Positions 533-32,956 of a stretch of 64,000 nucleotides of DNA are shown here, piece after piece. The notes beneath the pieces are model-generated. The model searched no databases and was not told where the DNA came from. It saw nothing but the letters and a program-made list of their open reading frames with translations. Location: NCBI RefSeq assembly GCF_041260155.1, contig NC_091940.1:32419841-32483840 (forward strand). The letters are read 5' to 3'. Each line of letters begins with the position of its first letter. The first letter of the stretch is position 1. The position numbers and the translations under genes are program-made. This DNA is from Ptychodera flava (taxonomy: Eukaryota; Hemichordata; Enteropneusta; Ptychoderidae).

Positions 533-1392
533 AATATCGATTTATTCATTAACTGAGAAATTTTCGATGGTATCACTATATCACTGTACTTTGCAAATGT
601 AGGACACCTAAAGACGTTGTTCAATTTGAAAAACCAGTGTATGCACCTATAATTACACACTCATTGGTGGCTCGTAGAATTTTTGAGTCCCTACCTTTGC
701 CTCAGTCGCTTCGGCTTTGAAACGAAATTTTGGTGTGAAATTAGGATCAGTTAGAGCCTTGCGATCCATCGTAAACGATTCGATGGGATACTCTGTCTTT
801 CCATCGATGGCCATCTGACTCAGGATCTTCAAAGCAAAGAGCAAAATCTGAAACAGGAAATAAAAAACACTAAAAATTTCCAAATTAAGGAACAACAAAC
901 TGAAAGAATTCAAATAGTCCGTTTTCACGATCCAACCGCAACTTGCTTGTACGTGCCGTCTCATCAAATGAAACTGCTCTGCCAGACATTCGACAGCAAA
1001 AGTTTTTGACATTTTCAAAAGACTTAATTTATCTTCTAGTACTTCAGTTCCAAAGAAGTGTGAAAACACACAGTCGATTGATCATAAAGCAGTACCAAAT
1101 GATCAAGACGTTTAACCATTACTTCAACATTACTATGAAAATGAACACAATACTATCCTTCGTAGGCTGTAGAGGAGGATAGTTTCGTCATCGTTTATTC
1201 TACCTTCGTTCCATAAACGCCTCGGTATTTAAGGCCACAATAGCTGCGGATGTAATGCATTATTTTATGATTTTATTTTCAAACCAAAGTTGGTTCGCAT
1301 AAATGTGCTAAATGAATGATGTGTATAGAAGTATCACTGCTTGATAATTTGGACCATGTCTGCACGTTTTAATATGTTAAGTAATTAATACT

Positions 1393-2310
1393 CTGGTGCC
1401 GAAGCACAAAACCCAAAAATTTCGGCCCCACAGTGGTTCTTGGTGGTTTCTGTATCTTCAAAGCCTACTGAATCAGGATCTGCGTGATACCACCCTGGCA
1501 CCGTACCCTTTGGCATTTTCAAGATGGCCGCAGATTTTCATGGTTGATTTTATAGCAAATATAACAAAAGATACCAATTCTTTGACCCGTAAAACATGCT
1601 CAAAGACACCAAAATCAATGGCATAGTGTATTGGGATATGACTTGTTATATACTGACACAGGCATTTGGGCGGCCATCTTAGATTTTTATGCAAATTGAG
1701 GGTTGTACATGTCAGTCAAGGAAAGATATCAATTCCATGACCCAATGTACCTGGCAAAGAATACCAAAATGACTACAACAGCTTCTCATTGAGCTGAGAT
1801 ATGATATTTTACCTGTTTTTAGGTCATTTTGGCAGCCATCTTGGATTTTTATGCAAATTAAGGGTTGTACATGTCAGGCAATGAAAGATATGAGTTCCTT
1901 AACCCCATTTACCTGGCAAAGGAGACCACAATGACTACAACAGCTCCTCATGGACATGAGATATGGTATTTTGCCTGTTTTTGAGGTCATTTTAGCAGCC
2001 ATCTTGAATTTTTATGCAAATTAAGAGTTGCACATGTTCGGCAATGAAAGAAATGAATTCCTTGGCCCTGTTTACCTGGCAAATGACACCAAAATCACTT
2101 TGACAACATTTAATAAAGCTGAGATCTTACCATTTACATGTTTTGGCGGCCATCTTGGCGGCCATCTTGAATATATTAAAATGCCCAAGGGTGCCAGGGT
2201 GGCATCATGCAGATCTTGATTAAGTTGGCTTTGAAGATACAGAAACCACCGAGAACCATTGTGGGGGCCGAAATTTTTGGGTTCGACCAAAAATCAGTTT
2301 TCGGCACCAG
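1393..2310. mobile_element. Long-TIR element with internal ~160-bp tandem units
   Basis: Ends are inverted copies starting CTGGTGCCGAA, with about 120 bp of recognisable inverted similarity (1393-1530 against 2170-2310). Direct ACT trinucleotides flank it at 1390-1392 and 2311-2313. The interior holds about 3.5 degenerate units of 160-165 bp, marked by ATGCAAATT at about 1689, 1850 and 2015 and by repeated GGCAGCCATCTTG-type motifs. No coding capacity. It lies in the last intron of copy A. Architecture (arms plus core repeats) recalls pearl/DINE-type non-autonomous elements, but the class is uncertain. Confidence 0.7.
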
Positions 2311-2948
2311 ACTGTAAGGGGTGCCGCACAAGTAAAATGGCGTCCCACTGAAAAGTACAAAAAATGCAGTCTTTCGTGCACATACACCGTCCTGACCATC
2401 CAAGAAACAGACATGATGCCATTTAGTTGAATACACAATTTGTTGTTGTAATCTTTATTTTCTCTGTCACGTGATTGTTTTTTTTTGAAAATGGGGGAAT
2501 CTAAAATGATACTAAAACTGTTGCAATGACGTGCCAATTTAGACACTTATGACAACAGCGTTATACACTTTTTCAGCCTTTTTTTAATGGGTCTTATTCA
2601 AAGAAAAAACTGTTGGAAAACCGAGGATATTTTGATTGGTTTATTAAACATTCACTGCTATTGTGGCTTTAACGCAAAATGCACGTAACTGTACAGCAAA
2701 CTTCGTGATGCTATTGTACATTTGACAAAAGTCGGATGCAATTAGTGTGGTGAGGGTGTTTGGCAATTCCTCCCTTCAAATATATACCGGTGTGACTTCT
2801 TTTTGTCTCGTGCTCACTGTTTAACCGTGTTTCTTGCTTTCGATATTGGACAGTTTACATGGCAAGTCTCTAATTAATTATGTATATCCGTTTACCAGCA
2901 CTGTTTTACACAAAATAGTCCTGCATATCTGGTTATCAGCGCAGTTTA

Positions 2949-3780
2949 AAGTGGCACTCCCACTTTGTAACTTTTTTAAAACACATTTTTTAATGCTAAC
3001 GGTCGATATTTGAGGTGACGACTGCGCGCGGATCTCGAGATATCGATAAAAACATGTCCTCAAAAAAGTAAAAGTTTGAATTCCGGTGGCCCACCTAAAT
3101 TCAGCTTCCGCACATCGAACGTTCGGCACTGGGGCCATTGTCAGCAAAGCTATGGAGTACGAGTCTACGCTAACGCTGCTGTACGCAACAGTATCACTGG
3201 CGTCGGTGATCGGTCATGCCCTGTGGGGAAAGCCGAGTCTTACTGACTCGGAGAAAGAGGAAAACAAAGTTTGCTGTTTCACCAGAATTCACATCGGTGA
3301 CTAGTACAGATACGTGCGGTTGATAAATAGCGGCCGCCGCGTGGTATGCGAACCACGCGTAACCGTTTGGTATTGGTTCAAAATATAATAGAACTGATGA
3401 GAATAATGAAAATGACAAAAACTAAGGAAAAGTTAAAAAAACTTACCTGAAGTGAAGGCATAATGCTGTATGTAAAGTCTTCGCAGTGAGAGGTATAATT
3501 GCATCCTTCTAACTTATTATGACTCCCCAGAATATCGTCAATCAGCACAACAACAAACCTTCGGTGGATTTCGGGTCATAATCAGAAACAATCGTACAAC
3601 TTCGGGATGTGAAGAATAGGCTCGGGAAATGACATGTTTTTATCGATATCTCGCGATCCGCGAGCAGTCGCCACATCAAATATCAACCGTTGGCCTTAAA
3701 AAAATGTGTCGCCACGTCAAATATCGACCGTTGGCCTTAAAAAAATGTGTTTTAAAAATGTTACCAAGTGGGATTGCCTC
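2949..3780. mobile_element. TIR element in copy A, absent from copy B
   Basis: Terminal inverted repeats begin AAGTGGCACTCCCACTT on the left, with a matching right end (AAGTGGGATTGCCTC). They are flanked by direct TTTA at 2945-2948 and 3781-3784. Inverted similarity reaches the ATCGATAAAAACATGT blocks near 3045 and 3630. The corresponding point in copy B, near 23990-24010, reads straight through without the element. The core (3085-3380) is more GC-rich than its surroundings. No transposase was recognised. Confidence 0.72.
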
Positions 3781-4312
3781 TTTAGACAAAGAAACTATCC
3801 GCTGTTGGTAAATCCATACAAAATAAGTGAGCGTCCGCAGCTCGTTAATTTATACAGTGGAAAAATTAAAATATCTATGGTTAGCATCGTATATGCGCAC
3901 GCATGATGACTGCGGCTCTTGAAAAGTTTTGCACAAGCATCGGGTCAATGTCTTCTTGATTTACATTTACGTAGAAAACAAAAGTAACTCACTTGAATGC
4001 ATAGCCAGCGCCGTTACAGAATATAACTTGTGGGAAACCTTTCTTTTCCAGCGTGTCGACGACAAGGTTACGGTCGGGAGGCATTGTGTAAAGACAAGTC
4101 TTGGTATACAGCAGTGGTCCCACAGCCTAGAGGAAGGAAACACATCAGCGACAAAAGAAACTACTAGTTTGTCATGTGGTGTGGTGACGTTTATTCGGGA
4201 AGCAACGAGCATTATCATCGATTTCTTATAAAATAACAGACTGAGATACTACAAGGGAAAACCTACTACCCGTACATAAATAATTTTCTACCAAAATTTC
4301 CATTACATCGCT

Positions 4313-4316
<4 letters not shown>

Positions 4317-4406
<90 letters not shown>
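4317..4406. repeat. (TA)n microsatellite, 90 bp
   Basis: Uninterrupted AT/TA dinucleotides in an intron of copy A, between exons 7 and 6. Open frames through it encode only alternating Ile-Tyr and are artefacts. Confidence 0.98.
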
Positions 4407-4409
<3 letters not shown>

Positions 4410-5349
4410 ATGAACTGGCCCGTATCTCCACCTGTGTGACGTACACCAACACAGATAAGAAATCCATATTACCCCTGTTGTACGTCATCAACCGGAACTT
4501 TTTTCCTGCAATGGTACCGTTCGTACGTGCACGTCGCGATACAGACCGATTTGTCGTGATCGATGCCGTGCTCTCATGTCATTTTGACAAAAAGATGACC
4601 CGATAAATCAAGATATTTAAGCATAGAAGGCACGTCCAACGAAATTTCGAGTCGCTAAAGCTTTAGCTATTCCCAAGAATCGAATAATTATAGACCGTCA
4701 ATCGTTTTAATGGCTCAGTAACGTCACGGCTAAAGTCGTAAGGCTCAATGTGGACGTCGTCGTACCTGGCGGATACCGTTGACGGAAGTGCCCACTACAA
4801 GCGCATAAGCTGACACACAGAGCGCATAAGCTTACACTCTGTGTGTCATTGATCTGAATCTTTCGGGCTCGCCAAGGTCGTAAACTTGTGATATTTTAAA
4901 AGCCACGGCATCTCTAAGAATGATAACTACTGTTTCGATTGTGTCATTGCATTAACTTCATAAATATAATTGTAAATATTCTAAATAACTCAAAATACTA
5001 TGGTTATCTGTCGCTAGCGCGGTGAAAGCTATGTCCGCCGATGGCAGACTTGCCTTGGCATCGGTCCAGCGCGAGACAATGATTGACACGCGCACGTGAC
5101 CGAATCCGTATGTCTGATTGGTGGAGATACCATTCGGTGTATCAAAATTTAGGCTTAATCGGTTTTATGAATGAAAGTATACCTGTAAACATTTGCACGT
5201 CTCCTGGGTGACGGGCCGCTTTACTCATTAAATGAAAGTAATCCGCGTAAATAAATCACAAAATCGCGATAAAAATCATGCAATTTGCTACAATAATATT
5301 GATCCATCCACATCAAAGACAAATAAGTAGACTGTTTATGTGATAAATA

Positions 5350-5478
5350 TATAATCCCATGGTATTTTTCTCTGTTTGATGTCATCGTATACGCGTGTTT
5401 TTCGCGGAGCCGCACAACTTCGAGCCGAAGGCTCCGCGAAAAACACTCGTATACGATGACGTCAAACAGAGAAAAAAG

Positions 5479-5485
<7 letters not shown>
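5350..5485. mobile_element. Foldback MITE abutting a (TA)n tract
   Basis: Inverted arms of about 55-60 bp (5350-5409 and 5427-5485) share TCATCGTATACG and GTGTTTTTCGCGGAGCC around a loop of about 17 nt. The outer ends read TATAATCC and GGATTATA, and the right end runs into a TA microsatellite. This suggests insertion at TA, as in Tc1/mariner-type MITEs, but the family is not settled. Confidence 0.65.

Positions 5486-5545
<60 letters not shown>
5486..5545. repeat. (TA)n microsatellite, 60 bp
   Basis: Pure TA repeat directly downstream of the foldback element. Confidence 0.97.
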
Positions 5546-5548
<3 letters not shown>

Positions 5549-6421
5549 CGTCCTGCAGAAGAAGGTTGCGTTCTGCGATGCGCATTCGTATCAATTTTGC
5601 ACTTGACATTAAAGCGGCGATTTCCGTTTTCTTATGTGGTGTGAGAACAGTCACAGCAAAATTCGAAAAAATCTGAATTCTTACATGTGTGATTTTTTAC
5701 CTTGGGAAAGTATTTCTCCAAAAATTCGAGGCACTTGTTCTCTACAACTGGTCAGCTGTAAAATTCCTGGTTTCCGGTGTTACCGCTGGCCCTGCAGCGT
5801 CGATTCCTACTTTGGTTTCCGTATTGCCATGGATTGGGCAACCGTAGAAGTCATACTTCGTATCGTGAAAGACCCAATATGGAAAGCTGTTAAAGCGAAT
5901 GAAAAGCAATTGTTGAACAGCAAAATTGTACGCAGTTCGTGTAGTTGGCACATGACGTCAGAGAGTGGGATTGTTGAAACGTTCTTGATGTCAATTTTTG
6001 ACAATTAAATCTTAGGTAAAGTGTTAAACTTAAAATCAAGCATTCATCTATCAAATATGATAACTATCGATGTAGTGGTATGTGAGAAAGAATATGCTTT
6101 TCATCGAATAATAGGAAGAATTGACCAAATTTGTATGTGCAAATTTCGTCGTTCAACTATGCCGGATTTCTGACGAACGGTTTCAGATGAAATTTAAAGC
6201 CGACGTATACGTTATATCCACAGAGTTACTCATATTGTTTGGTCGTCTATCAAACTCACTTCTCCTTGGTGAAGTCCTTCATATTGGGAGTAGCTACATA
6301 CGTGGCCTGTTCCTGCGTCACTGTCAACGGAATATGCACACCAACAGATCCTAACACGTGATTGATCCAAGCACCAGCGCGACAACGAAATATGCCCTGG
6401 TTTGTGTAAACCTGAAGAGAA

Positions 6422-6422
<1 letters not shown>

Positions 6423-6477
<55 letters not shown>
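6423..6477. repeat. (GA)n microsatellite
   Basis: GA repeat directly upstream of copy A exon 5 (on the minus strand), within the intron 4 polypyrimidine region. Copy B has an equivalent tract at 26127-26183, so it predates the duplication. Confidence 0.95.
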
Positions 6478-6483
<6 letters not shown>

Positions 6484-7559
6484 GGTATTGCATAAATGTT
6501 TTGTTAACCCTTTTTTCGTAGGACAGTGCTCACATTCTTTGCATGCTCGGTCGATGCCAAGTTAATTAAATCGCAATAGTGCTGTTTGTCAGATTGTGAC
6601 TTGGTGACATCAGAAAATCAGACAAATAACCGGAATACAAACCAGTACATGAACACCATCTGTATCCTTGTCCAGTTTCAATACGTTGCAATTCTCGACT
6701 ATGGTGGCGCCATGCTTTCTGGCATGTGAGTGGCGTTCGCCATGGCAGCATCCACCAAGCCGGAGTCCTTCTGGTAGAGACCAATGATGTCAGATCCTAT
6801 GTTAAACTGAGGGAAACGCTCACTTATCTGATCTCCAGTCAAACGCTCGTACCTGTTAAAGTATAGATATATACATACAGTACGATAGGAATCTACTCGT
6901 GGAAAATTTCTCCAAACTACCTGTCATGATTCTGTTTTATAGGACGGAACTTGAGTTATATAAAAAAATGCGCGTAAGAGTACATACATTTCTGAGTTTC
7001 TTTTATTGGATTAAGTTTACGACGGATTATTTTGAGAGCCGAAAAGAAAATATCGACTGTTTCTTTTTCACTGTCATAAACGAAAATATAGATAGCCACT
7101 TTATGTTGGGAAAACAGCAATACAAGGACAACATGCAAAGGTCGTGTCAGTATCACAATTACGCGAAATTTGCTTTGATTTAGCTCTTCTTGCACGCTTT
7201 CAGCATTAGTTCCGAGCACTTACGAAGATATCCAATGATCACCTAAAAAATTAAATGTTTGGGCTTAAAGATAGGGGGTGCACCTCCATGTTTCAGCACA
7301 AGTTACTCACGGGATGTTCTGTTGTCCATAGCAGCTGCATAGTCTCCTATTATTTTGACCCACTCGGGAACCGAAGCATGACCAAGGTGGATACCGCCAC
7401 ATTTGTACACCAACTGTATCCCAGACTCCTTTTCGACTTCTCTGAATGTAGTGAAGGTATCTCTAACCAGTTTGGTGTAGCATTCTTCGTGATACAACAA
7501 ACGTCTGCAAAGGAACATTATATTTGTGTGGTTAGAGCTCGTTTCCGACAACATTCTAT

Positions 7560-8256
7560 CACAGAGAAACATACACAGAGTCGCAACGGGTATTGTTTAG
7601 GCGTGAAGCGGTTACGTAACCCATCCATGTTCGCCTCGCCTCAGGTTGCTCTCGCCTCTCTTTTCCGAAGAGTGCCGACCATGCATCCTTCGTAATTTTC
7701 GGATTTTCGCCAATTGTTAAGCGAAAGTATGTTCGGCAAAGTTTGTGTTGTTGTTGTCGTGTGGTGCTGAGCGGAATTGACGTGCTGGCGAAAAGGGGAG
7801 TGTTTTGAGCTTCAGGAAAGTGAGTTTTACCGTTTTAAAAATTCCTCTCATATTTTTATGAATATATAATGAGTGTGTTTGAACCAAATTTGAAAGTCTT
7901 TTATCGATACTGTCTGGTTTTACTTAATGGTTTACGGTCAGCCATACCGTCTTTTACAAAGTGCGTCAAGGAAGGACATGTTTATGAAACTGCTGGCGTG
8001 TTATGTTTTGATTGGCGTGAAGCAGTGTTTCTGGCCTGAGAGCTCACAAAGTAACTATGGTTGCTACGCGACTGGCAGTACGATGCCATCTCGTCCTATT
8101 TTTCGCATAATCTCGTGTAATTATCAATCACAAACAAAGCCTCCAAAAAGTTAACACCTTGAAGCTCATTTTAATATGGAAAGCCAATAGTCTACCGAGA
8201 CGACCATGGAACAAAAGGCATGCAGCGTTTCAGTCTGTCAATACTATTTGTCTGTG
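7560..8256. mobile_element. Non-autonomous DNA transposon with 7-bp target duplication
   Basis: Ends are CACAGAGAAACA (left) and CACAGACAAATA (right, inverted). They are flanked by direct ATTCTAT at 7553-7559 and 8257-8263. Copy B has the unoccupied site near 28985-29005. The right 140 bp (8115-8256) recurs in inverted orientation at 17833-17990, starting exactly at the CACAGACAAATA terminus, which supports it being a true end. No transposase frame seen. The 7-8 bp duplication hints at hAT, but the TIR is not diagnostic. Confidence 0.75.
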
Positions 8257-9379
8257 ATTCTATGAATCAGATCATAGTGTCCAAGTAGCTCGGAGGGGAT
8301 TATTGTCTTGAAATACGATGAAACTGTTACCGATTATGTCGAAGATAAAATTTTACCAATTTATCTTTCATCGCACTAACATTTACGATATATATGACAA
8401 ATCATACTATTGGTTTATCGATGTAAATTAATCAATTTGTATTTAATACAGTGTCGTGTGCGGCAATTAAAACACGTTCGATTGGCGGTTAATTTTGTCT
8501 TAATAATGTATAGATTTATATTTCAAGTGTTACATGAGTGTCCGAATTTTTTGAAAAGGTCTTTTCATTGATTCACCAAAGATAAGTTCCTCTTTATAGT
8601 CACGGTATCGTGTAACTTACTGGCTTTATAAAACTGAATGCCCTGACTTAGGCACTTGGAGATCAGATCATTTGGATTCAGCATTGACATGGATGTGAAT
8701 GTGATGAAAAATGAAAACTTAACAAACTTATTGATATTAATGGAATATAGGCCAGAAATGCATTAATACAGAATATGATGTAAATCGCCTCTGCAATTAT
8801 TGGTGTTAAACTTAACACAGAACGATCTCTGTTTATAATAAACACTTGTAGGATAATACTGCATGTATCTAGTCGTTGCTTCCGAAACTCTTTCTTATTT
8901 CAAATTGACCAGACTTTGTTTAGAATGTGCTGCCCAAACAACACTTGGCCAATAATCAAGGTGACTTCGAAACAGTTTTGTGTCTGAGTCAGTCCTCATC
9001 ACGACCGTAAACACGGTAAAAGCGACCCCGAGTCCAACAAAAGTAAAGCGTATAGCAAGGCATTTATTTAATACAGTATACAACCATGCGAAGAGTTCAC
9101 ATACCAGTGTTAAAAAAGGGTGACTTACAAGATTCGAGAGTGGTCTTGTGAGCCGCCATTATCGTGTCCAAGTTTGAACTGCTCAAGGCCAAGTACATCT
9201 ACAAATATGAAGCATTGCATATTTTGAAGGTTATCGTGTCCTGACAAATACCTGAAGGGAATATCCTCGTCACTCTGATTCCGTCTTATTATCTAGCATA
9301 GCAATAATTACACTTTTGCTTTAGCGCTTTTAAGGACATGCGATTGTGGTTTGAAGCACAGGGAACCTAGAAATCTGAT

Positions 9380-9640
9380 CGCTGTTGTTGTTGTTGTTGT
9401 AGTTATTGTTGTTGTTGTTTATGATTATATTAGTCGTGTTGTTGTTGACCGATAAAATTCAACTAACATAATTAATGTATTGTTGTTGTTTCAAAAGTAA
9501 TGTGGATGTCATAAGAAACACTACAAGGACACTATCATTATTTGACCCAGTGCAACTCTCTCCCAACGTACACTCTCAGCCCTCATGACATTTCCATTAC
9601 TTTTGAAACAACAACAACAGTGGCGCCAAACACTTGTGCC
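9380..9640. mobile_element. TTG/CAA-rich foldback element, truncated copy
   Basis: Related to the element at 10055-10421: the same order of (TTG)n, a TAAAATTCAAC block, a central CTCTCCCAACGTACACT block and an inverted CAA-rich arm. The outer right arm is missing. Lies between exons 2 and 1 of copy A. Confidence 0.6.
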
Positions 9641-10054
9641 GGTGGCCATTCCACGAGCGGACTGACATTTCGTTTCACTGTATTGCGACTACTATTACAA
9701 CCTTTTCCTGTGACTTTATAGTTGGCAGATACACGTGAAATAATAAAACGCACCTTTTAGTCTCTAAGGTTTTATAGACATTGTGTTAATCGATAGGCAG
9801 ACTGCAGAACTACATGAGCTCTTGTGTTTTCGAACGGAAGCTAAAAACGAAAATCGGTATCTGAAAGAGCATCTGCTGCTAAAGTAGACAGATTCTTGGC
9901 TCGTTACGATTGATTTTGTTATTCGAATATCACTACTGGTCACAGTAGCACCTCACCTTGGTTACGGTGTAAGCTACGGGGAAAATTCCTGAGCTATGTT
10001 CACAGGGGTTCGGCGCATTCTTAGTGTGTATAGCTGCTCAGGTCGACGCAGCAA

Positions 10055-10421
10055 CAGGGGACCCAGTAATCTGGTTGTTGTCGTTGTTGTTTGTGTTATT
10101 GTTATGTTGTTTTTGACCAATAAAATTCAACGAACATAATTGTGTTGTTGTTGTTTTAAACATAATGTCGATGTCATAAGAAACACTACAAAGGACATGC
10201 ACTATCGTTATTTGACCCAATGTAACTCTCTCCCAACGTACACTATCTTCCTGAGAGTTGCATGACATCATCGATACGTTTGAAATAACAACAACAACAA
10301 CATAGTTATGTTCATTGAATTTTATTGGTCAACAACAGCAGGAATAATAACACGACTAATGTAAACATAAACAACAATACAAACAGCAACAACAACAACC
10401 ACCAGATTACTGGTTCCCCTG
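10055..10421. mobile_element. TTG/CAA-rich foldback element, complete; hAT-like ends
   Basis: Terminal inverted repeats read CAGGGGACCCAGTAATCTGG on the left and the inverse, with one change, on the right. Subterminal inverted blocks include ACCAATAAAATTCAACGAAC. CAGGGG-type ends resemble hAT. No clear 8-bp target duplication remains. Copy B lacks the element (site near 32255-32275), so it inserted after duplication or was lost from B. Confidence 0.68.
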
Positions 10422-10699
10422 TAAATGCACCAACTTTGAAGCAGCCAGCTCACGGCCCCAGGGCTACAGTTATTGCGGTCAACTCTTATGTACAGTTCTG
10501 TGATGCGATTTCACATCTACACACTATTACAAGGCACTGTGCCGTTGTATGCTAGCACTATATTTGTACGTAGGGATGTATCTTAAAACAGATATGAACT
10601 GAAAATGCTCACGTGTTTCATTATATATTGCATTTATGTGCAAGTTTGAACCTTTGCTACATGCTTTGCTACATTTAAAGTGTTATGATCAACACAATG

Positions 10700-13801: not shown

Positions 13802-14850
13802 CGCTGCGACATATGCTCACGTGTTCACACGTGAGCAAACAAATGTTAAGCCTCAATGCTTGCTGTGCACTGACATCGTGAACTAATAGGGTTGATATTC
13901 TTTTGACAGGGGATTGTAAAAGTGCGAAAAAACCCAACTGATTGATAGTGTGCATGACTATTGTGACCCCAACAGTACCAGTCACCGGCTAGAAACCCTT
14001 TGGAAAGTAGCCAGAGACGTCTGCCCGTCTCCTCCCTGGCCCCCATTCCTACGATTCCTTTCCATGGAAGTCGGTCACTCACAGTCCATACTCACTTGTA
14101 CCGGCACGTTTTGACAACCAATACACGGTACCGCTGCCGATTCCACCGCAGCCGACAACGATGTACTCGAAGTACTGAGGTTTGCTGGGGCTCGCCGTCA
14201 TGCTCACTCAACTTTCTAACATCAGACTGGGCATCAGACCAAATACATTTTATCATCCCTTTGGTAAAGGTCACATCCTCGAGGTCAATAACAGGTGTTA
14301 GGTGAACTGGGTCACAGGTGCCTGGAGTTGCAAGTGTAGTTTATTAATGCCTCGATGTGACTGCAAATCAGTGCATTGATTTGAATGGGGACATCCGGGG
14401 AGTTAGCGGGCCGGTGAAGATGTACTGACCGGTTTCCATGATTACCTGGCCAAGTGACGCCCTTCGACGTTTTCGACGTCATAGTAGACGCTTAACGCTA
14501 GATGTAAAATAGCAAATATTTATTTATTTAGCCGTGTATACATACGTAACATTGGCATAAAATGAAATACAAAACAAAAGAATTACAAGATTGAAAAACT
14601 TTGCAAGAAAGATGAAAAAAATCATCTCAAAATTACATGTTATATATAAGCTTTCATCAGCTCATTAAAGAACTTTGCAGTAATATGCACAAAGGAATCA
14701 TCAGAACAAGACATTATGTATATCCATGCGCGCACTGCTATTGTGACTTTCGTTAAAATATGTTTGATGCTGTTCGATGATGGTAAAATTTGAAAAATGC
14801 CCTGCATGTAAATACATGTCATATAGCGTTAACTGTGGCATGCAATGAAA

Positions 14851-14972
14851 ATATTATTGCCTGAATACATGGGCTGTGTGCCCTCGCAGCAGGGGCCAAA
14901 TTGCTCTCCTGGAGTCGGGCAAATTGTCACCTGCTCTCGGGCACATAAACCCATGTATTCAGGCAATAATAT
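14851..14972. mobile_element. ~120-bp foldback MITE
   Basis: Inverted ends ATTATTGCCTGAATACATGG (14853-14872) and the inverse ending at 14970 surround a GC-richer middle with its own partial dyads (TGCTCTCSTGG and GGGCACA-type blocks). Upstream of copy A exon 1. Family not assigned. Confidence 0.65.
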
Positions 14973-15370
14973 ATAGAGAGAAGGGGGAATGTACGATTTG
15001 TGTTTATTTTCGACTCGGGCAGTTTTATTTGCAGGCCGGATAAGTCCGTTTCATACCTTTGTGGATATTCTACGTATCAGTATGTCCAACGTAGCATAAC
15101 TCTACACTATAGACTATCCCAGTCCACATACGCCTGTGGGGACTCTACACGCACGGCATGTTGATTTTCAAACTGTCCTTTATGTAAAGGCACATGCGCA
15201 CGTCATCGAATTAACTTGACAAGTTTGCGTTTGGCATGATAAATGTGTCGTCATACAAGTAAACAAAGTATTATATATTCCCGCTATAAATTGGGTCAAA
15301 GTTTATCGCAAAGCATTAGAAAGAAGGGGGAAGTGTCTAGACAAGGATACTTTCGCACTTAAGAAAAAAT

Positions 15371-16160: not shown

Positions 16161-16163
16161 TAA

Positions 16164-17827
16164 GGCCGCGTTTAAAAAAAATGGTGGGGGGGGGGGGGCT
16201 GGAGGAATCGCGATTGAAATTTATTTTTTTCAGATCCCCCCCTCAATACCCTCAAAAATTTTCAAGTCCCCCCCCTCAATACCCTCAAAAATTTTCAAGT
16301 CCCCCCCCCAAATTACCATATAGCCGAAAATTTATTAGGAATGCACGCAGGGTAAAAAAAAAACACGTAATGTGTCGTTCTGCACGCAGATGTTCAATAC
16401 TACCTCTTATCAGCAGGTTGTAGAGCCATATACCTAGGGCAAGTTCTTAAATTGATTCATTTTTAATGCATCAGTGAACTTTTTGGATTTCTCAGTCTAA
16501 GCCGACTTGAGTTTATCCAACTCTGGCCAGTTCAATGGCACCAGCTGAAAGCACACAAAATGACAATCATGAGAGAGTATGAAAATTATGTATTTCTAGC
16601 TACATTTAACCAAATTGTGAAAAAAACGAGCACAGTGACCTACCGAAAATTTTTTTTTCAAAAGTACAAGACATCTACAACTTAGATGCCACTTATAAAA
16701 TGTTTTACAAAATTGACAATACTGGAAGGTTAAAATATTCCATGAAATTAATGTTTTAATCTCAGAAATTTTGGGTGTAATAATGGCAAATTTGATAAAA
16801 AATAAAAGATTCCATTTAGTCACACATTTTTCCATTTATATTAGAGTCTTTACTGTTCAAAGTTTTACTTTTGTGTTATTGGTACAATGAGATGTGAAAA
16901 TTTCATTCACTGCATGAACTTGAAATGAATGGTTTTATATATTGATTTTAAGTGATTTTAGAAAAACTGACTTTTCATCGTACATTTGTATAAGATCAAG
17001 TATGGTGACCCCATCTTTTTTCTCTAAAATTTGATTGTTCTCATATGCCAGAATTCAAAAATCCATGGTAACTGTTAGTCCCCTAGTCTTCTATGTATTG
17101 CTCTCTGGATGGATCTTGTGTACAAGTAGATGTATGTTTCACTGTCAATTGAGTGTCCTATGACCGAAACTCTTCTTAAACTACAACAGAGTCAGAGCTA
17201 CATGTATACTGTCACTGCCAGTATGTAGTAGCAGGGCAGTAGTTGTATTAACTTTTATTTTGACAATATTTTTGTTCAGTTTATACAATTGTGTTCTTGT
17301 TCTACTCCCTACAGAATGTTGAGCTATCCAGTATTCAGCTTGCCAACACAGCCTACGTGTACCGTGCATTTGCATCATTCAATTATCACCAATATTTAGA
17401 CAAACGGGCTTTGTTGACAAACTGAATATTGTGTTTTTCAGCAGCATGCTATTGCTGTAGAGAGACACCAAGAAACTGTGTTTGATACATTGCATAGAAA
17501 TATTGAAAAATTATCAACAGTTGTAGCTCCTGCCCCATTACAAGGCCAACTTGTTCTACGAAAATTTAATGGCATTCATACATTTTTAGACTTTTTCGAG
17601 ATTAAAGACATAAAATATGACAAAACGGTTCTAGATTTTGTTTAATTATTACTAACATTAGAACCATTGGACGACATCAAAATGTTGGGAGTCAAATATT
17701 TTCACGTCCCCCCCCCTATAGGCAGAGCAAAACTTTCAAGTCCCCCCCCCTCGACTACCCCAAAAATTTTCGAATCCCCCCTGAATTCCTCCAGCCCCCC
17801 CCCTCACCACTTTTTTTGAACGCGGCC
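16164..17827. mobile_element. PIF/Harbinger-like element, copy 1 (1.66 kb)
   Basis: Terminal inverted repeats begin GGCCGCGTT(C/T)AAAAAAA followed by G/C-runs. Direct TAA flanks both ends (16161-16163, 17828-17830), fitting the 3-bp TWA duplication of PIF/Harbinger elements. Subterminal ~30-bp units with CCCTCAAAAATTTTCAAG occur near both ends. Two segments look exon-like on the plus strand: 17315-17426 after CTACAG (36 codons to a stop) and 17442-17645 after TTTTTCAG (67 codons to a stop). No DDE transposase was recognised. A second copy at 26187-27835 is roughly 95% identical. Confidence 0.78.
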
Positions 17828-17832
17828 TAAAT

Positions 17833-22423: not shown

Positions 22424-22429
22424 TATCGA

Positions 22430-22594: not shown

Positions 22595-25500
22595 TCATAA
22601 CTTTGCCTTTGTCGTTTCGGCTTTGAGACGAAATTTCGGTTTGAAATTAGGATCGGTGAGAGACTTGCGATCCATCGTAAACGATTCAATGGGATATTCC
22701 GTCTTTCCATCGATCGCCATCTGACTCAGGATCTTGCCAAGCAAACAGGAAAATCTGAAATACGGAAATAAAAACCATACATAATTTCCTATTTATGGAA
22801 CAACAAACTGAAACGATTCGAATTATCCGTTTTCACGATCCAACTGCAACTTGCTTCATCAAATGAAACTGCTCTTGCAGGCATTCGACAGGAAAAGTTT
22901 TCTACATTTTTAAAACATTCAACTTTAGTTTCTAGTACTTCAGTTCCAAAGAACTGTGAAAACACACCGGTCGATTGGTAAAGCAGTACCAAAGGATTAA
23001 GAATTTTATATCATCACTTGAACATTATTATCAAAGAGTACGAAATACTTTTCAAGGATCTAGAGGAGGATAGTTTCGTCACGTTTTATTTTACTTTCCT
23101 GTCATAACTGTAGAGGTAGTTAACACAAGATGCAATGTAAACTGTACGGCGATGACGTTGCGCATCTGATGAAAGTCGGATGCATTAAGTGTGGTGGTGC
23201 TTTGAAATTCCCTCATCTCCCGTGCCTATTGTTTGAACCATGTTGCTTGCTATCGACACTGGACAGTTAACCGGACAAGTCTATAATTACTGTCGTATGC
23301 AGATAAGAATGGACAGTGAAATTGATCTAAATGTTGTCAAACTTGTGTAATTGGTTTGTAAAGTTGTTTCAAAATTTACTACAGGATCTGTAACTTAAGT
23401 TGAGTTGCGGCAAACTAAAGACAGATGATAGTGTTGTTGCACAGTAGGCTTCTGCTGTAATTGTTGATATAAAGCAATAAAGTAGACACTGATTAGTGTC
23501 TGTGTGTGTAGGGTAAAGATTTCCTGAATTTCTATCGCCGTACATTTCGACAACTTTCTCACTTACTACTTCTGGCGTATGTTCACCTCTTTACCTGTGA
23601 TCGTGATTTTTTTTTTTGCCAAAGAACTTCATAAAATGCAAAGGCAACGAGAGTCTAATGACAACTAGACTCTGACTTGGCTGTGATACAATGTAACTCA
23701 AAACAGCGGTATATAAGGAATGTAATATGAGTCTGTGTATGTGAAGTGCACTGCAAAGTGTACTCCCTGGTGTGTGTTTATTATGGGTCCATAAAAGCTC
23801 TTTGATTTTCACCGCAGTTATAACAAGTCAGTGCAACTTCCGTGGCAAGTTTTGGAACAACTTTACAAACCAATTACACAAGTATGGCAACATTTAGATC
23901 AATTTCACTGTCCATTCTTATCTACATACCAGTGTAATTCTCCATTTCAGTTATCAGTATTGTTTTACACAAACAATGTGTCCGGGATAATAAGTACAGT
24001 TTTAGACAAAGACATTATCTGCTCTTGTTATACCCATACAAATGAAGTGTTCGCAGCTTGTTGAGCAATGCCGTGGAGAAAATTAAAATATTCATGAAGT
24101 TAACATCTGGGAATGATAATTAACTAATACGCGGAAGTGTCAATACACAAAATTACCACAAGTTGGCCTAAGGGTACACCTTGCCGATGTGCCGAAGTAG
24201 ATCAAAGTTTGCATGAAATTGAGGAAAGCTTGAGTATTGGGCTAAAATGAGAAGCAAACAAATACACACAATATTTAAACTGGTCTGAGACATACTTTAC
24301 ATTTGCACAAAATGAATTGAACAGTTCAGTAAATATCAGAAGTAGACCCCGGCCTAGGAAAAATAACATCGCACAATGAATAAAATAGTGATGACGGATT
24401 ACTCATAAAAATTGCACATGACAGTTTCATAAACAATATGACCATCTCCGCGTTTCATACTTTTACCAGACTGAGACCCAAAAAGTGGCAGCTATCCCGT
24501 TAACGACCTCGTACTACAACTACCATTTACTGATAGCTCAGCACAGAAGGGACATCATCACGAGCTACCATCGCCATGCTTAAAGAGTCACAGTCGTTAG
24601 CTCTCCCTCAAAAGTCGTATGGGTCCCATGCTACATGATAGAGCCTGCAGATTTACATTTGAGAGCATAAGATGCAAATATGATGTTTCTGATGGCATAA
24701 ATGGGAACACCACACTATTTTGATTTGTTTACTAGTTGTGACCGAGAAAAACGTACATGCGCATGCGTGACGACTGTGGCTCTTTAAAAGGTGTTCAACA
24801 AATATAAGATCCATGTTGTTTAGACAGAAAACGAAAGTTACCCACTTGAATGCATGCCCAGCGCCGTTACAGAATATAACTTGCGGGAAACCTTTCTTTT
24901 CCAGCGTGTCGACGACAAAGTGACGGTCGGGAGGCATTGCGTAGAGACAAGTCTTGGTATACAGCAGTGGTCCTACAGCCTGGTGGAAGGAAACACATAA
25001 GCGGTAAAAAGAAACTCGTAGTCATGTGGTCTGGTGACGTTTATTCGAGAAGCAACGAGCATTATTAATCGATCGTGGTAAAGTAATTTTGATCTTTTTC
25101 TATAAAATAAACGATAAAGAAAAAAAGGGAAAACCTATTACCTTTACATGAGGTCGTGGATTTTCTCTCAAAATTGTCTATCTGATATATATTTTTTTCT
25201 ACACTGCATGGTAGGGTGTCTCCGTTAGAAGCAGTCAAAAGAAAACCGGAAATCTTACAGTATTTGTTTTACCTTGGGAAAATATTTCTCCAAAAATTCG
25301 AGACAAAGGTTCTCTACAACTGGGTCAGGTTTAAAATTCCTGGTTTCTGGCATTACTGATGGCCCTGAAACATCGGCTGCAACTTTCGTTCCAGTGTTGC
25401 CATGGATTGGTAGACCGTAGAAGTCATACCTTGCATCGTGAAAGACCCAATACGGGAAGCTGTTAGAAAACGAATGAAAAGCAACTGATGAGAGCCAATC

Positions 25501-26122
25501 ACGACGCAGTTCTTGTAGTGAGCACAGAAGGTGGTCGGGCGGAATATTGATGCCAGACGGCTTTGAGTTGATGGTTGAAGCATTTGTAATGTCAAATTTT
25601 TGCAGTGAAAATTTGAATAATTTTGTGAACTCAATATCAAGCATGCATCCATCAACTATGATAATTTAGTTATCAATACAGTGGTATGTGAGAAAGAATA
25701 CGTTTTTCATCAAAAACAGAAAGAAATGACAAAATCTGCATATGAAAATGTTATCGTTTAACTATGCCGGCTTTCTGACGAACGATTTCAGATAGAATTT
25801 GAAGCCGACGTTCATGTATATACGTTATGTCCACAGAGTTACTCAGATTGTTTGGTTGTCTATAAAACTCACTTCTCCTTTGTGAAATCCTTCATATTTG
25901 GTGTGGCTACATACGTGACCTGTTCCTGGGTCACTGTCAATGGAATATGCACACCAACAGATCCTAACACGTGATTGATCCAAGCACCAGCGGTGATGAT
26001 GACGCGACGACAACGAAATATGCCCTGATTTGTGTAAACCTGAAGAGAAGCAGATACCTTTGTTCAAAGACAGACTGTAAAATAACCTTACAGACTCGAT
26101 ATGCGTCTGTGGCGCATTCGCT

Positions 26123-26185
<63 letters not shown>

Positions 26186-29100
26186 AGGCCGCGTTCAAAA
26201 AAAATGGTGAGGGGGGGCTGGAGGAATCGCGATTGAAATCTTATTTTTTTCAGATCCCCCCCCCTCAGTACCCTCAAAAATTTTCAAGTCCCCCCCCTCA
26301 ATACCCTCAAAAATTTTCAAGTCCCCCCCAACATTACCATATAGCCGCATATTTATTAGGAATGCACGCAGAGTAAAAAAAAACATATAATGTGTCGTTC
26401 TGCATGCAAATGTTCAACACTACCTCTTATCAGCAGGTTGTAGAGCCATATACCTAGGGCAAGTTCTTAAATTGATTCATTTTTAAGTGCATCAGTGAAC
26501 TTTTTGGATTTCTCAGTCTAAGCCGCTTTGAGTTTATCCAACTCTTGCCAGTTCAATGGCACCAGCTGAAAAGCACACAAAATGACAATCATGAGAGAGT
26601 ATGAAAATTGTGTATTCCTAGCTACGTTTAACCAAATTGTGAAAAAATGAGCACAGTGACCTACCTAATTTTTTTTTTCAAAAGTACAAGACATATACAA
26701 CTTAGATGCCACTTATAAATTTTTTTACAAAATTGACACTACTGGAAGGTTAAAATATTCCAGGAAATTAATGTTTTAATCTCAGAAATTTTGGGTATAA
26801 TAATGGCAAATTTAATGACAAATAAAATATTCCATTTGGTCACACATTTTTCCATTTAAATTACAGTCTTTACTGTTCAGAGTTTTACTTTTGTGTGATT
26901 GGTACAATGAGATGTGAAAATTTCATTCACTGCATGAACTTGAAATGAATGGTTTTATATATTGATTTTAAGTGATTTTAGAAAAACTGGCTTTTCATCG
27001 TACATTTGTATAAGATCAAGTATGGTGACCCCATCTTTTTTTTTCTAATATTTGATTGTTCTCATATGCCAGAATTCAAAAATTCATGGTAACTGTTAGT
27101 CCCCTAGTCTTCTATGTGTTGCTCTCTGGCTGGATCTTGTGTAATTGTTTCACTGTCAATTGAGTGTCCTAGGACCGAAACTCTTCTTAAACTACATCAG
27201 AGTCAGAGCTACATGTATTACTGTCACTGCCAGTATGTAGTAGCAGGGCAGTAGTAAACTTTTCATTTTGACAATATTTTTGTTCAGTTTATACAATTGT
27301 GTTCTTGTTCTACTCCCTACAGAATGTTGAGCTATCCAGTATTCATCTTGCCAACACAGCCTACGTGTACCGTGCATTTGCATCATTCAATTATCACCAA
27401 TATTTAGACAAACGGGCTTTGTTGACCAACTGAATATTGTGTTTTTCAGCAGCATGCTGTAGGAAGACACCAAGAAACTGTGTTTGATACATTGCATAGA
27501 AATATTGAACAAATTATCAACAGTTGTAGCTCATACCCCATTACAAGGCCAACTTGTTCTATGAAACTTTAATGGCATTCATACATTTTTAGACTTTTTA
27601 GAGATTAAAGACATAAAATATGACAAAACAGTTCTAGATTTTGTTTAATTATTACTAACATTAGAACCATTGGACGACATCAAAATGTTGGGAGTCAAAA
27701 TATTTTCAGGTCCCCCCCCCCTATAGGCAGAGCAAAACTTTCAAGTCCCCCCACTCGACTACCCCAAAATTTTCGAATCCCCCCCCCCTGAATTCCTCCA
27801 GCCCCCTCCCCCCCACCACTTTTTTGAACGCGGCCTAAAGGTATTCCATAAATGTTAACTCTTTTTTCGTAGGGCAGTGCTCATATTCTTTGCTTCATTG
27901 GTCGATGCTAAGTCAAGTAACTCGCAATAGTGCTGTTTGTCAGATTGTGACTTGGTAACATCAGAAAATCAGACAAATAACCGGAATACAAACCAGTGCA
28001 TGAACACCATCTGTATCCTTGTCCAGTTTCAATACTTTGCAATTCTCGACTATGGTGGCGCCATGCTTTCTGGCCAACTGTATGTGTGTGGCGTTCGCCA
28101 TGGCAGCATCCACCAAGCCAGAATCTTTTTGATACAGACCAATGATGTCAGGCCCCGTGTTAAACTGAGGGAAACGCTCTCTTATCTGATCTCCAGTCAA
28201 ACGCTCGTATCTATTTAAGTATAAATATAGAATATTTACTCGTAATTATTAGTTCTAACTCTTTCTAAAAAATTCTCGAAAATACCTGTTTTGATTCTCT
28301 TTTTATAAAGGCTTTGTTATCGGAAGACCATTTTTAGCTAAAAGAAACGTTATAAATTGTGTTAAAATGCGCGTAAGAATTACGGTCCCTCAGCTACATC
28401 CATTTATTGGTTTCTTTTGTTTGATAACAAGGTTTGTGACGGTTTTTTCCATGTCATAAATGAAAAGATAGGTACCCACTTCATGTAGGGGAAAACAGTA
28501 AGGGCAACAGTTTAAAGCTTCACACGTCAGGAAAAGTCGGGTCAGCTTCACAATTATAATTACATTCAAAAGGCTGCGCGAAACTGATTTTGATTTTGAT
28601 GTCGTTCTTCTTGCAACAAATTCAGCATTAGTTCCGAGCGCCTCCGAAGATACCCGACGCTCAATTAAAAATTAATGTTTGAGTTGAAAGGTTGGGTTAC
28701 CCCTTCCCCCCCCCCCCCCCCCCAATGTTTCAACCCCAGTTATGGTTACGTACGGGAGGTCCTGTTTGTCCATAGCAGCTGCATAGTCTTCGATTGATTG
28801 TACACACTCAGGAACCGAAATGTGACCGAGGTCAACACCGCCACATCTGTACACTAATTGTATCCCAGATTCCTTTTCGACTTCTTCGAATGTAGTGAAG
28901 GTTTCCCGAACCAGTTTGGTGTAGCATTCGTCGTGGTACAGCAAACGTCTGCGAGGGAACACGTACTTGATTGGTTAGAGCATGTTTCTGACAACATCTA
29001 TGAATCACAGAACAGTACTAGTGTCCAAGTACATGAAGCTCGAAGGGGATTATTTTCTCGAAATATGAAGAAAAAACTGTTACAAATTATATCGAAAAGA

Positions 29101-32100
29101 ACATTTACCTAAGCTTTAATTACAGTAATATTTATGATATAAATGGCAAACCATTCTAATTGTCTTACTAAATGTAAATTATTTTTGTAGTCAATACAGA
29201 GTCATGTGCCTCAGCAATTGAAACACGTTCGTCGGTCAATTAATTTTGCCTTAAATGCGCCTCGAAAGTGAAAGACTTAAACTTTTGCTCAAATTTTCCT
29301 CAAGTAATCTTTCAACTATATTCACTTTCAAAATCAAAAATAAAAATCGGGGGTCACCGTGCAAATTATTGTACTAGAGAGACAAATTACCTCAGATTTA
29401 CCGATATTTGAAATTCAAAATGGGCCACCATCTCTATTTTAACTCTATGTTGAAAAATAAAATTTTCGCTATTTCATTCATTATGAATGAGGTCAATCAC
29501 CTATGTATAAATGGCAGGTGTTGATATTTACACAGACCGATCTCTGTTTACAATCAACACTTGTAGCATAATGGAGCATGTATTTACAGTCGTTGCTTCC
29601 GAAACTCTTTCTTATTTCAAACTGACTAGATTTCGTTCAGAATGTGCCGCCTAAACAACACTTGGCGCACAATCAAGATGGCTTCGAAGTAACCTTGAAT
29701 CAGTCCTCATCACGAACTTAAACAAGGCGACAACGATACTGAGTCCAACAAAAGTAAGTTGTAGCTAGGCACTTATTTCCTTAAAGGGACAAAGTCGGCC
29801 ATTTTTCATGAATTTTGTTTGCTACGAGATACTACTCATATTGTTTGACATGTTGAAAGATACTGAATGAATGGGTGACCATGAATATATTTGAACCCAG
29901 TTTTCGACACCGTGACGATACATGAAACCATCGCGAAAACAGTTAATGGTCATGACCATTAATTCATTTTCGCGATGGTTTCATTTAATTTGTCTAAAAC
30001 CGGGGTCGAATATATGCATTCACCCATTTATTCAGTATCTTTCAACATGTCAAACAATATGAGTAGTATCGCTTAGCAAATAAAATTCATGAAAAATGGC
30101 CGACTTTGCCCATTTAAGGACACCGACCATACCGACTGTGTACATACTCGTGGTAAAGAGGGGTAACTTACATGATACGAGAGTGGTCTTGTGAGCCGCC
30201 ATTATCGTGTCCAAGTTTGAACTGCTCAAGGCCAAGAACGTCTACAAATATAAACCATTGCATATTTTTTAAGGTTATCGTGCCCAGACAAAGGGAACAT
30301 TCACGTCACTCTGACTTCGTCTCATTATCTGGCATAGAGACCAAGGACGTATCGTAAAAGTTTTAGACCGAATATTTGTCCCCGGGGCGCATTCGACCTT
30401 CACCTGCATGTCGGACAAACAATTGATGTTCATGTTATATTTACAATCATCAAACTAGTCATTTCTAACATTAGCTGTTTTGAAAATGTATGAACACACA
30501 TATATTCTACTCGTGATGACTATGTCATATCTATTTTTGATCATCGATAAATTCCCTCTTTGTTTAACAAAGTTTCGTTGTATGATTGAAACCGTGCCTT
30601 CAGTGTACAGTTAAACAGCCACAACTGTCGAAGGACCCAAGAAACAGTATTGAGAAGACGCACAGTCATGAGAGGGTGTACGAATCTTGTGTTTGAAATA
30701 AAGTCTATGAAATAGAAATGGCGTAAGACAAAAACCTCTCTCAGTTATGTGTAACATGGTGAAAAAGGCAACAGAGCCAAGATGAATAGAAGTCCTCGAG
30801 TTTTGTTCAGTTATCAAATATTTTTTTTAATCGCAGGGAGTACAAAAAACTTGTCAATATTTCACTTCAGAACCTAAGACTTCAACCTATTGCCCCACAG
30901 AATGGCCCAACTGAACGCTTCAGCAGCACTTTGGTTGACGTGTTTTCCATACGTTTGATGATTGGCAGAAAGATTAGGATCGCTGCTTTTTCACTTTGCG
31001 TGTCGTGTTAGCTATTTGAGTTCACAGTATTGCAAGTGTATTGTTATCCTCTTTCATACATATATGGAAGAGATGCACTTTTTCTATGGATGAACACAAA
31101 ATATGCATTCTGAACTTGAAATTTTGGCAGATATTATAAAGTCACAGCCCGAAAGTTATCGAGAGAAAATGTTGAGAAGTAGCCTACTCAAATAAAAGTG
31201 CGGCATGATCGGAATCTAAACTTTATTTCAATTTTGCATACTCGATAATTACACATGTAATATCACTTTTCAGTTAAATTCGATCAGCGGTTTTTGAGGC
31301 ATTGTGTTAATGGATGATAGATAGACAACAGGGCAACATGAGCCCTTGTGTTTTCGAACGGGAGATAAAAACGAAACTCGATATCTGAAAGAATCTGCTC
31401 CTACTACGTTCGGCGTATCTTAGGGAGCCATCATTATCTATGGCACGGGGGTCGGAGAAATCTGAGGAGGTCACTCAAAAATTGAAAGCTACAAGGGGGG
31501 CTGCTCAAAATGTTGAGAGAAAGCAGGGGGTACTCAATTATGGTGAAAAAAAATTGAAATATCTCTCAGATTGCACCATTGCACACATCCATTTCTCAAA
31601 ATTTTCGATGCCAAAGGGGATACCCCCTTTCGTGTTCTCCCCTGGGATGTTCTAACAGTTTACTTTGTAAAAATCAAATTGAAAACACCTCTCAGATTGC
31701 ACCAGACTGCACAATTGCACACACGAATTTCTCAAAATTTTCCATGAAAGAGAGGGGACACCCCTCTGACACTTTCCTCTTGGTTGTTCTCCCCCTGTAC
31801 TTTCAAATTCTACCACTGCAGATATCCTATTGAAAATCCTGTCATGATATCCATCCAAATTAAACACTACTATATAGTTGGATACTGGTTATAGCATGAA
31901 CTTTTATATCTATATTTCCTATTTTGTTGGTTTCACCTTTGTCAACCGTCATGAGATAACCGACGGGACGATATTCTAGTAGGGTACACCAGGATTCGAA
32001 AGGTCTTTAGGCCTACTATTGCTCTATTTCTGTAAATTTTACAAATAAATGTATTGATATTTAACTTTTCTAAGAGGGCGGGGGGGGGGGTTAGTCAAAA

Positions 32101-32956
32101 TTTCTGTGTTAGAGAGGGGGTCACTATAATTCACCATGGTTGGCAAGGGGGTTACTCGAAATTTCAGTTTCCGATGATATTCCTCCGATCCCCCCAGGCC
32201 GTAAATAATGATGACTCCCTCAGTGTGTAGGCCTATATAGCTGCTCTGATCGACGCAACAACATCAACGCTAAAGCAGCAAGCACACGGCCCCGGGGCTA
32301 CAGTGATTACATCCAACTCTACATGTATATACGGTTCTATGATTCTTTTTTTCACCGACACGCAATTACATGCAAAGCGATGTGCTGTTGTATGCCAGCA
32401 CTATATGTATATTGTATGGACAGATCAACTGTTAAGCCTCAAGATTGCTGTGCGCTAACGCTGTAAACTCAGGCGGTTGATATTATTTTGACACGAAATT
32501 GTAAAACTGCGAACAAAAACAAATAATGATTGTGTGCATGACTATATTGTGAACCCAACACTACCAGTCCCTGGCACAGTCACGTGTTTTCTAAAAATCC
32601 GCTCTGCGCCGTGCCCAATAGACGTGCGCACATAATGCTTGAGAAGAAGAGCATATCTATGTACACACACGTCTACGGGACGCATAGGCGCAGAGTGGAA
32701 TAGAACACAGGTGACTGTGGTCACTTGCTAGGAATGCGTACTCCCTTTGGACAGTAGCGAGACGTCTGCCCGTCTCCGGATCTCCTTCCTTGTCTCCCCA
32801 TTCCTACGATTCCTTTCCTTGGAAGTCGGTCACTCACAATCCATACTCACTTGTACCGGCACGTTTTGACAACCAATACACGGTACCGCTGCCGATTCCA
32901 CCGCAGCCGACAACGATGTACTCGAAGTACTGAGGTTTGCTAGGGCTCGCCGTCAT
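22595..32956 (-). CDS. PIPOX: Peroxisomal sarcosine/L-pipecolate oxidase-like enzyme, copy B (intact)
   Basis: FAD-dependent oxidase of the monomeric sarcosine oxidase family. Members oxidise N-methyl or cyclic amino acids such as sarcosine or pipecolate, giving H2O2 in peroxisomes. Eight exons: 32956-32851, 30241-30172, 28948-28754, 28210-27994, 26039-25873, 25459-25273, 24979-24846 and 22754-22595. Every join is GT-AG and keeps one frame, giving 1236 nt or 411 aa, close to about 390 for human PIPOX. Residues 17-22 are the FAD Rossmann motif GCGGIG, with E41 in the following LEQ. VIITAGAW is at 209-216 and LTVTQEQVTY follows. C325 in KTCLYAMPPD matches the cysteine that binds FAD covalently in this family. 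The chain ends AKL, a type 1 peroxisomal targeting signal. The start has GAGCATGAC context. Exact substrate cannot be read from sequence. Intron 4's donor (CTG|GTTTGT) is the weakest join. Confidence 0.93.
26127..26183. repeat. (GA)n microsatellite
   Basis: GA repeat in copy B intron 4, orthologous in position to 6423-6477. The Harbinger-like copy 2 inserted right at its end. Confidence 0.95.
26187..27835. mobile_element. PIF/Harbinger-like element, copy 2
   Basis: Same TIR (GGCCGCGTTCAAAAAAA) and direct TAA at 26184-26186 and 27836-27838. It sits in copy B intron 4; copy A at 6478-6490 has the unoccupied site. Collinear with copy 1. The 36-codon exon-like segment is still open (near 27323-27431), but the 67-codon segment is disrupted here by a short deletion and substitutions. 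Confidence 0.8.
29255..29475. mobile_element. TTAA-flanked MITE, truncated copy
   Basis: Starts TTAA then ATGCGCCTCG and matches the element at 48524-48875 in reverse orientation for about 220 bp, then stops. Lies in copy B intron 2. Confidence 0.65.
29785..30113. mobile_element. 329-bp foldback MITE with TTAA duplication
   Basis: Long inverted arms start AGGGACAAAGTCGGCC on the left and the near-inverse on the right. TTAA flanks both ends (29781-29784, 30114-30117). The centre is a perfect ATTAATGGTCATGACCATTAA-type dyad. TTAA targets suggest piggyBac-like mobilisation. Absent from copy A. Confidence 0.78.
30362..31422. other. Copy B first-intron sequence
   Basis: Partly alignable with the copy A intron (for example near 31290-31420 and 9770-10030). 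No independent gene or repeat recognised. Confidence 0.35.
31423..32219. mobile_element. ~800-bp TIR element in copy B, absent from copy A
   Basis: Inverted ends read GGGAGCCATCATTATCTA and the near-inverse, bounded by TTA (31420-31422) and TCA (32220-32222), a probable TNA-type 3-bp duplication with one change. Copy A has the empty site near 10020-10030. The interior has several GGGG-plus-CTCAAAATTT units. Possibly Harbinger-like; no transposase. Confidence 0.7.

Follow-up and report, generated by a model that had tools for sequence, protein, structure and literature searches.

Vertebrate PIPOX, a member of the sarcosine/N-methyltryptophan oxidase superfamily, has a GHGFK loop, a His at the position numbered 269 in monomeric sarcosine oxidase (MSOX) and a C-terminus of the PTS1 type, a class of peroxisomal signal to which a C-terminal AKL also belongs. 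The cysteine that links the flavin in MSOX is, in the numbering that we take to apply, Cys315. In one account of MSOX, Arg52, Tyr55 and Lys348 are described as anchoring the carboxylate and His269 as an active-site residue (PMC12582975), and an equivalent of Lys348 is described elsewhere as taking part in covalent flavinylation (PMC6222107).

The locus analyzed here lies in a 64,000 nt stretch of the Ptychodera flava genome (hereafter the window). Self-comparison of the window and a finer search of one copy against the other revealed two minus-strand copies of one gene, the downstream copy A and the upstream copy B (Table 1). A first-pass annotation made from the letters of this DNA had described a tandem pair with one intact and one dying member. 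This description agrees with our results, as each copy has eight exons and lesions are present only in A. When the eight exons of B (32956 to 22595) are spliced at their GT/AG introns, they yield 1236 nt that encode 411 amino acids plus a stop codon, contain no lesion and end in TKAKL, which corroborates the earlier statement that B alone reads through in frame to an AKL end. Copy A (14201 to 689) retains all eight exons, the ATG and 14 of 14 splice dinucleotides. The A exons are not chance matches to B, since a tblastn search of the window with the B protein recovers all eight at E values of 2e-9 to 2e-29, whereas the three other matches have E values of 6 to 8.

Table 1. Positions in the window of the two gene copies, their exons and associated elements.
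Feature	Position	Strand	Remarks
Repeated unit of A	531-15415	minus	downstream copy
A exon 1	14096..14201	minus	retains ATG; one substitution over 106 nt
A exon 2	9129..9198	minus	no indel
A exon 3	7311..7504	minus	1-nt deletion near 7322
A exon 4	6643..6852	minus	7-nt deletion near 6723; first stop of spliced reading at 6841
A exon 5	6260..6411	minus	15 nt missing in frame at about 6380/6379, ahead of AGAW
A exon 6	5701..5886	minus	1-nt deletion near 5750
A exon 7	3993..4126	minus	no indel
A exon 8	689..847	minus	1-nt deletion near 830; stop and AKL lost
A exon-1 block	14046..14243		near-identical to B 32801-32998; candidate gene-conversion tract
Extra DNA of about 0.9 kb	14244..15140 (edges approximate)		absent from B; adjoins A exon-1 block upstream
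Second copy of intron-4 element	16161..17831		in spacer between A and B; 93.6% identical
Repeated unit of B	22420-33312	minus	upstream copy
B exon 1	32851..32956	minus	ATG at 32956
B exon 2	30172..30241	minus	
B exon 3	28754..28948	minus	
B exon 4	27994..28210	minus	
B exon 5	25873..26039	minus	
B exon 6	25273..25459	minus	
B exon 7	24846..24979	minus	donor GTGGGT
B exon 8	22595..22754	minus	AKL and TGA at end
DNA-transposon-like element in B intron 4	26184..27839		inverted ends GGCCGCGTTC; TAA flanks included

A Pfam DAO domain (PF01266) spans residues 13-371 of the B protein (E 9.6e-46). The protein passes the cut-off of the NCBIfam model for N-methyl-L-tryptophan oxidase SolA (NF008425; 280.4 bits against 257) and stays below that of soxA_mon (TIGR01377; 240.9 bits against 479.65), and copy A, read through with 12 X residues, scores 247.6 bits on the SolA model and so lies under its cut-off. 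By sequence, the solved structures nearest to B are bacterial sarcosine oxidases followed by MTOX, and the homology to MSOX extends over the full length (PDB 7exs, 1l9c and 9u3b; E 4e-49, 2e-44 and 4e-44, respectively). Searching the PDB with a predicted structure, that of the bacterial relative L014 (mean pLDDT 90.7) and not of A or B, likewise places 7exs at the top (TM 0.89), and the order of matches by fold is the same as the order by sequence.

Equivalents of MSOX Arg49, Arg52, Tyr55, Tyr254, Lys265, Cys315 and Lys348 are retained in B. These include the carboxylate-anchoring set (R60, Y63 and K359 for Arg52, Tyr55 and Lys348), the flavin-linking cysteine (C325, a putative covalent link) and the O2-activating lysine (K277 for Lys265). 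B differs from MSOX in having Asp281 in place of His269 (Asp in A too) and Val257 in place of Met245, and in a loop before GHxFK that is one residue shorter. Among the best 80 of 162 relatives described below, 55 carry Asp and 25 carry His at the His269 position, SQDHSRIIR is present in 63 and the shorter loop in all 80. B also ends in the PTS1-like tripeptide AKL, and we infer that it is active in peroxisomes, where it would probably oxidize a secondary amino acid and make H2O2.

The relatives were collected by a search with the two-sequence alignment, which returned 201 stretches and 162 relatives, the best 80 of which were used (L011-L090). The SolA-like relatives were found through LEQF[KE]LGH or VTQEQV[TS]Y and come from Chloroflexota, Rubrobacter, Latescibacterota, cyanobacteria and others. 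A search of genome contigs with B alone gave 26 pattern matches and no relative, an alignment of seven sequences gave no conserved stretch, and a family search of two plasmid records gave four loci (L007-L010) that were left out of the comparisons. The nearest proteins found among the best 80 of 162, from Caldilineaceae and Latescibacterota, are about 51% identical to B, and a SolA encoded on a Paracoccus plasmid is 41% identical. The names of these relatives, or their discovery here, go back to sequence alone, and B differs from them in its eight exons and AKL end. A tree in which A and B were the sole eukaryotic entries placed the two together with sequences of cyanobacteria, Chloroflexota and Latescibacterota (local support 0.969); given this sampling, the placement does not show the origin of the gene.

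The label ‘PIPOX-like’ given to the pair in the first-pass annotation needs narrowing. It is adequate at the level of the superfamily, and both B and PIPOX have a PTS1-type C-terminus. It may not extend further, as the nearest relatives of B among the best 80 of 162 are prokaryotic and SolA-like, the TIGR01377 cut-off is not reached, the GHGFK loop is missing and Asp occupies the His269 position. No molecule named PIPOX is present among the 30 PDB sequence hits of B.

Copy A retains the architecture of B and departs from it in length at five exons. The differences in exon length (A minus B, exons 1 to 8) are 0, 0, -1, -7, -15, -1, 0 and -1; four gap-penalty settings all give this net result, with one compensating +1/-1 pair added in exon 3 by two of them. 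Frame-breaking deletions in exons 3, 4, 6 and 8 and an in-frame 15-nt loss beside the AGAW motif of exon 5 had been reported from first inspection, and all of them are reproduced here, the frame-breaking ones measuring 1, 7, 1 and 1 nt. The 15-nt loss removes the five residues RVIIT immediately before AGAW. When mapped on the L014 model, it takes out an entire strand of the core (residues 195-198), and the 7-nt deletion in exon 4 lies within a helix. Two of the three single-nucleotide deletions sit in short runs (AAA to AA and CCC to CC). If A is spliced unaltered, codon 128, located in exon 4, is a stop, which leaves 668 nt up to the last exon junction. At the other end of the gene, the TGA of B has been altered in A by substitutions, and the last frame of A continues past AKV to AKVGTQKFYEPPMSV. 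The next stop lies at 655-653, which is why the pair had originally been drawn to begin at 653. With both the stop codon and AKL lost, A is without the peroxisome signal, as had been noted.

The best 80 of 162 prokaryotic relatives permit an assessment of which copy changed. Among the 45 readable amino-acid differences between the copies, the relatives favor B at 21 and A at 19, with five ties, and the FastTree branch of A (0.056) is no longer than that of B (0.077). Mean identity to these 80 sequences is 0.456 for B and 0.449 for A; B is the closer copy for 58 of them and A for 12, and 10 are tied. Where a site is conserved in at least 97% of the 80, A alone deviates four times (I59L, V237A, F335L and H356Y) and B alone never, and at sites conserved at 80% the corresponding numbers are five and two. 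A also preserves the equivalents of Arg49, Arg52, Cys315 and Lys348. The symmetry between the copies is the main point against A having been dead for long, and the pattern of sites fits a long constraint on both copies followed by a short, recent relaxation on A, although the symmetry and the preserved motifs of A would likewise be consistent with A being a living gene.

The exons of A and B are identical at 1095 of 1211 compared nucleotides (90.4%), and the 116 substitutions between them distinguish the copies. The first-pass annotation read this similarity as early pseudogenization and proposed a dN/dS estimate between the copies. We obtained a dS of 0.270 and a dN of 0.059, and the ratio of 0.218 (bootstrap 0.141-0.330; 399 codons) is a signal of purifying selection. 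Had A evolved neutrally ever since it was duplicated, we would expect a ratio above 0.5; the pairwise value is dominated by the constrained period. By eye, dS differs from exon to exon (0.09 to 0.48), and a chi-square test on the counts is not significant (p 0.083). The 399 readable codons of A contain no nonsense codon, whereas neutrality along its entire branch predicts 5.0 on average (P 0.009 for a complete absence); a neutral fraction of at most 0.5 is compatible with this absence (P 0.073 at 0.5).

Indels provide a further clock. The aligned non-coding DNA of A and B differs at 564 of 3305 columns and contains 95 indel events, counted after removal of transposon HSPs (16161-17831), of HSPs in dinucleotide repeats (A 6416-6479) and of any match located past 34000. 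The claim that the copies share introns as well as exons is thus true of these columns and not of the other intron DNA, which is unalignable. A wholly neutral A branch would have accumulated 28.1 exon indels, and five deletions are observed. By our arithmetic, 5/28 corresponds to 0.18 of the branch (Poisson range about 0.06-0.42), a timing that uses one indel-to-substitution ratio from alignable introns and is biased towards conserved DNA. A would thus have lost constraint in roughly the last fifth of its separate life, with a wide error. The dS of 0.27, the low dN/dS, the lack of nonsense codons and the deficit of indels together indicate an old duplication and a late death of A. Judged by these comparisons, A is a copy that was under selection for most of its life after an old duplication. 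The notion of early pseudogenization survives insofar as the decay appears recent for the age of A, but the exon identity on which it had been based is misleading given a dS of 0.27.

One part of the gene departs from this divergence. The exon-1 block is identical at 195 of 198 positions (98.5%) and has abrupt edges, and its silent sites differ at 3 of 110, as against 593 of 3355 elsewhere. It was the only block, together with its non-coding flanks, to stand out in a scan. Shuffling equaled it in 4 of 2000 trials with windows of 110 sites, a width that was chosen to match the block, and in 10 of 2000 trials with 100-site windows; with 60-site windows the lowest window is instead at 6571-6630 (126 of 2000). 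The binomial P of 1.2e-6 for the single block is post hoc. Gene conversion at exon 1 would be the simplest reading of this pattern, and constraint on the 5′ end is a possible alternative source of the similarity. Upstream, the extra DNA of about 0.9 kb in A separates the block from DNA that is homologous to the upstream side of B.

A more far-reaching reading would be that the pair represents a little-studied clade of peroxisomal amine oxidases shared with cyanobacteria, Chloroflexota and Latescibacterota, distinct from PIPOX and possibly gained from bacteria, in which conversion at exon 1 is still copying between the twins. We regard this reading as rather unlikely. If it were true, ongoing conversion would mean that the dead A can still change the living B.

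The same block bears on whether A has been kept for a role other than that of an enzyme, be it as a truncated protein of about 127 amino acids, as a regulatory RNA or as a conversion donor to B. The 98.5% identity over 198 nt would suit such a role, as would the partly retained homology on the promoter side and the intact splice sites of A. However, intact splice sites are expected anyway if A died recently, and a truncated fragment would be without the equivalent of Cys315. Furthermore, a stop far ahead of the last exon junction normally triggers mRNA decay, and the exon-4 stop of spliced A has this layout. A retained non-enzyme function is therefore improbable.

A 1.66-kb element resides in intron 4 of B and has no counterpart at the corresponding site in A. 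Together with the copy in the spacer, which likewise has GGCCGCGTTC inverted ends and TAA flanks, it presumably resembles non-autonomous transposons of the PIF/Harbinger type; a comparison of the element with phage records gave no match. The site in A is a few bases off a clean empty site, and the element may have been inserted before the duplication and later lost from A. Other repeats are also found in the window. The A-B spacer contains a 150-bp tandem repeat in six copies (19285-20200). A 349-bp tandem repeat forms two arrays (34973-36266 and 38273-39303) in opposite orientation about 2 kb apart. Long direct repeats (54897-56218 and 59845-61537, with pieces 88-93% identical) lie between B and a HACL1-like gene, and a short open stretch on the plus strand (46-220), YRSLVESILTFNIVSWYGNLSLKDKMRL, may resemble the tail of a LINE reverse transcriptase. 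An Rfam gathering search and a tRNA search of the window found nothing.

The HACL1-like gene (2-hydroxyacyl-CoA lyase) is represented at the right edge of the window by its last two exons (63998-63840 and 63478-63446, minus strand). Their best PDB match is 2-hydroxyacyl-CoA lyase 1 (E 5.5e-10), and the Pfam TPP_enzyme_C domain scores 19.5 bits, below its cut-off of 21.9. The protein ends in DFQWLTRSKM, in which SKM is a PTS1-like end, and would be another peroxisomal enzyme.

The first-pass annotation also raised the possibility of a haplotype-level or assembly-level artefact, in which the assembler would have set two haplotypes, A and B, in succession, with a null allele on one of the two. 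Heterotype false duplications, some of them adjacent on one scaffold, are described as a major assembly error (PMC9516828). Under such an arrangement, it would not be surprising for one allele to be intact and the other broken. Stacked haplotypes are also expected to share flanks, yet the 7 kb upstream of A (15416-22419) barely match the DNA upstream of B (33313-64000), where only 150-bp and 58-bp repeat pieces match, at 36.8-37.1 kb. The unit is thus delimited in the way expected of a true duplication. Moreover, the window is without any N, and a dS of 0.27 is far above allelic divergence in most animals. The unmatched upstream flanks, the element present only in intron 4 of B and the 7- and 15-nt deletions all disfavor an artefact, which we consider highly improbable.

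That A is a living gene whose lesions are mostly uncorrected sequencing errors is very unlikely: its three 1-nt deletions, two of them in short homopolymers, are of a kind made by read errors, and its splice sites are intact, its 399 codons free of nonsense and its dN/dS low, but 7-nt frame-breaking and 15-nt deletions are atypical of read errors, its stop codon was lost by substitutions, four sites that are near-invariant in the best 80 of 162 relatives are replaced in A and none in B, and B has no lesion in 1236 nt.

We consider it very probable that an old tandem duplication was followed by long constraint on both copies and then by decay of A alone, with B remaining intact. Specifically, A and B would descend from one gene, duplicated in tandem, whose product was a flavin-dependent amine oxidase of peroxisomes within the sarcosine/N-methyltryptophan oxidase superfamily, and purifying selection would have acted on both for most of the time since. 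A alone would then have lost constraint, gained frame-breaking deletions, had part of its core fold removed in frame, and lost its stop codon and PTS1, whereas B would have retained everything. We infer that the lesions of A are present in the living genome and that A is without a useful product.

None of the matches listed in our literature searches was a published account of this gene pair, which provides a clean example of a duplicate that can stay under selection for long and then be lost. High exon identity by itself must not be taken to indicate a young duplication, and A should not be annotated as a gene. Of broader interest is the enzyme itself, as B is an intron-bearing, AKL-ended member of the SolA-like proteins whose closest relatives among the best 80 of 162 are prokaryotic and known by sequence only.

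Copy A is homologous to an intact gene and retains introns, and its reading frame is disabled by four frameshifts, one in-frame core deletion and the loss of its stop codon. These are the features by which duplicated (unprocessed) pseudogenes are recognized, and A is apparently a recently dead pseudogene of this ordinary kind beside its intact parent. Duplicated pseudogenes located next to a working parent are likewise tandem and on the same strand, keep their introns, and carry frameshifts and lost terminal signals. There is no essential difference between A and such pseudogenes, and A stands out solely by the extent of past constraint that can still be seen in it.
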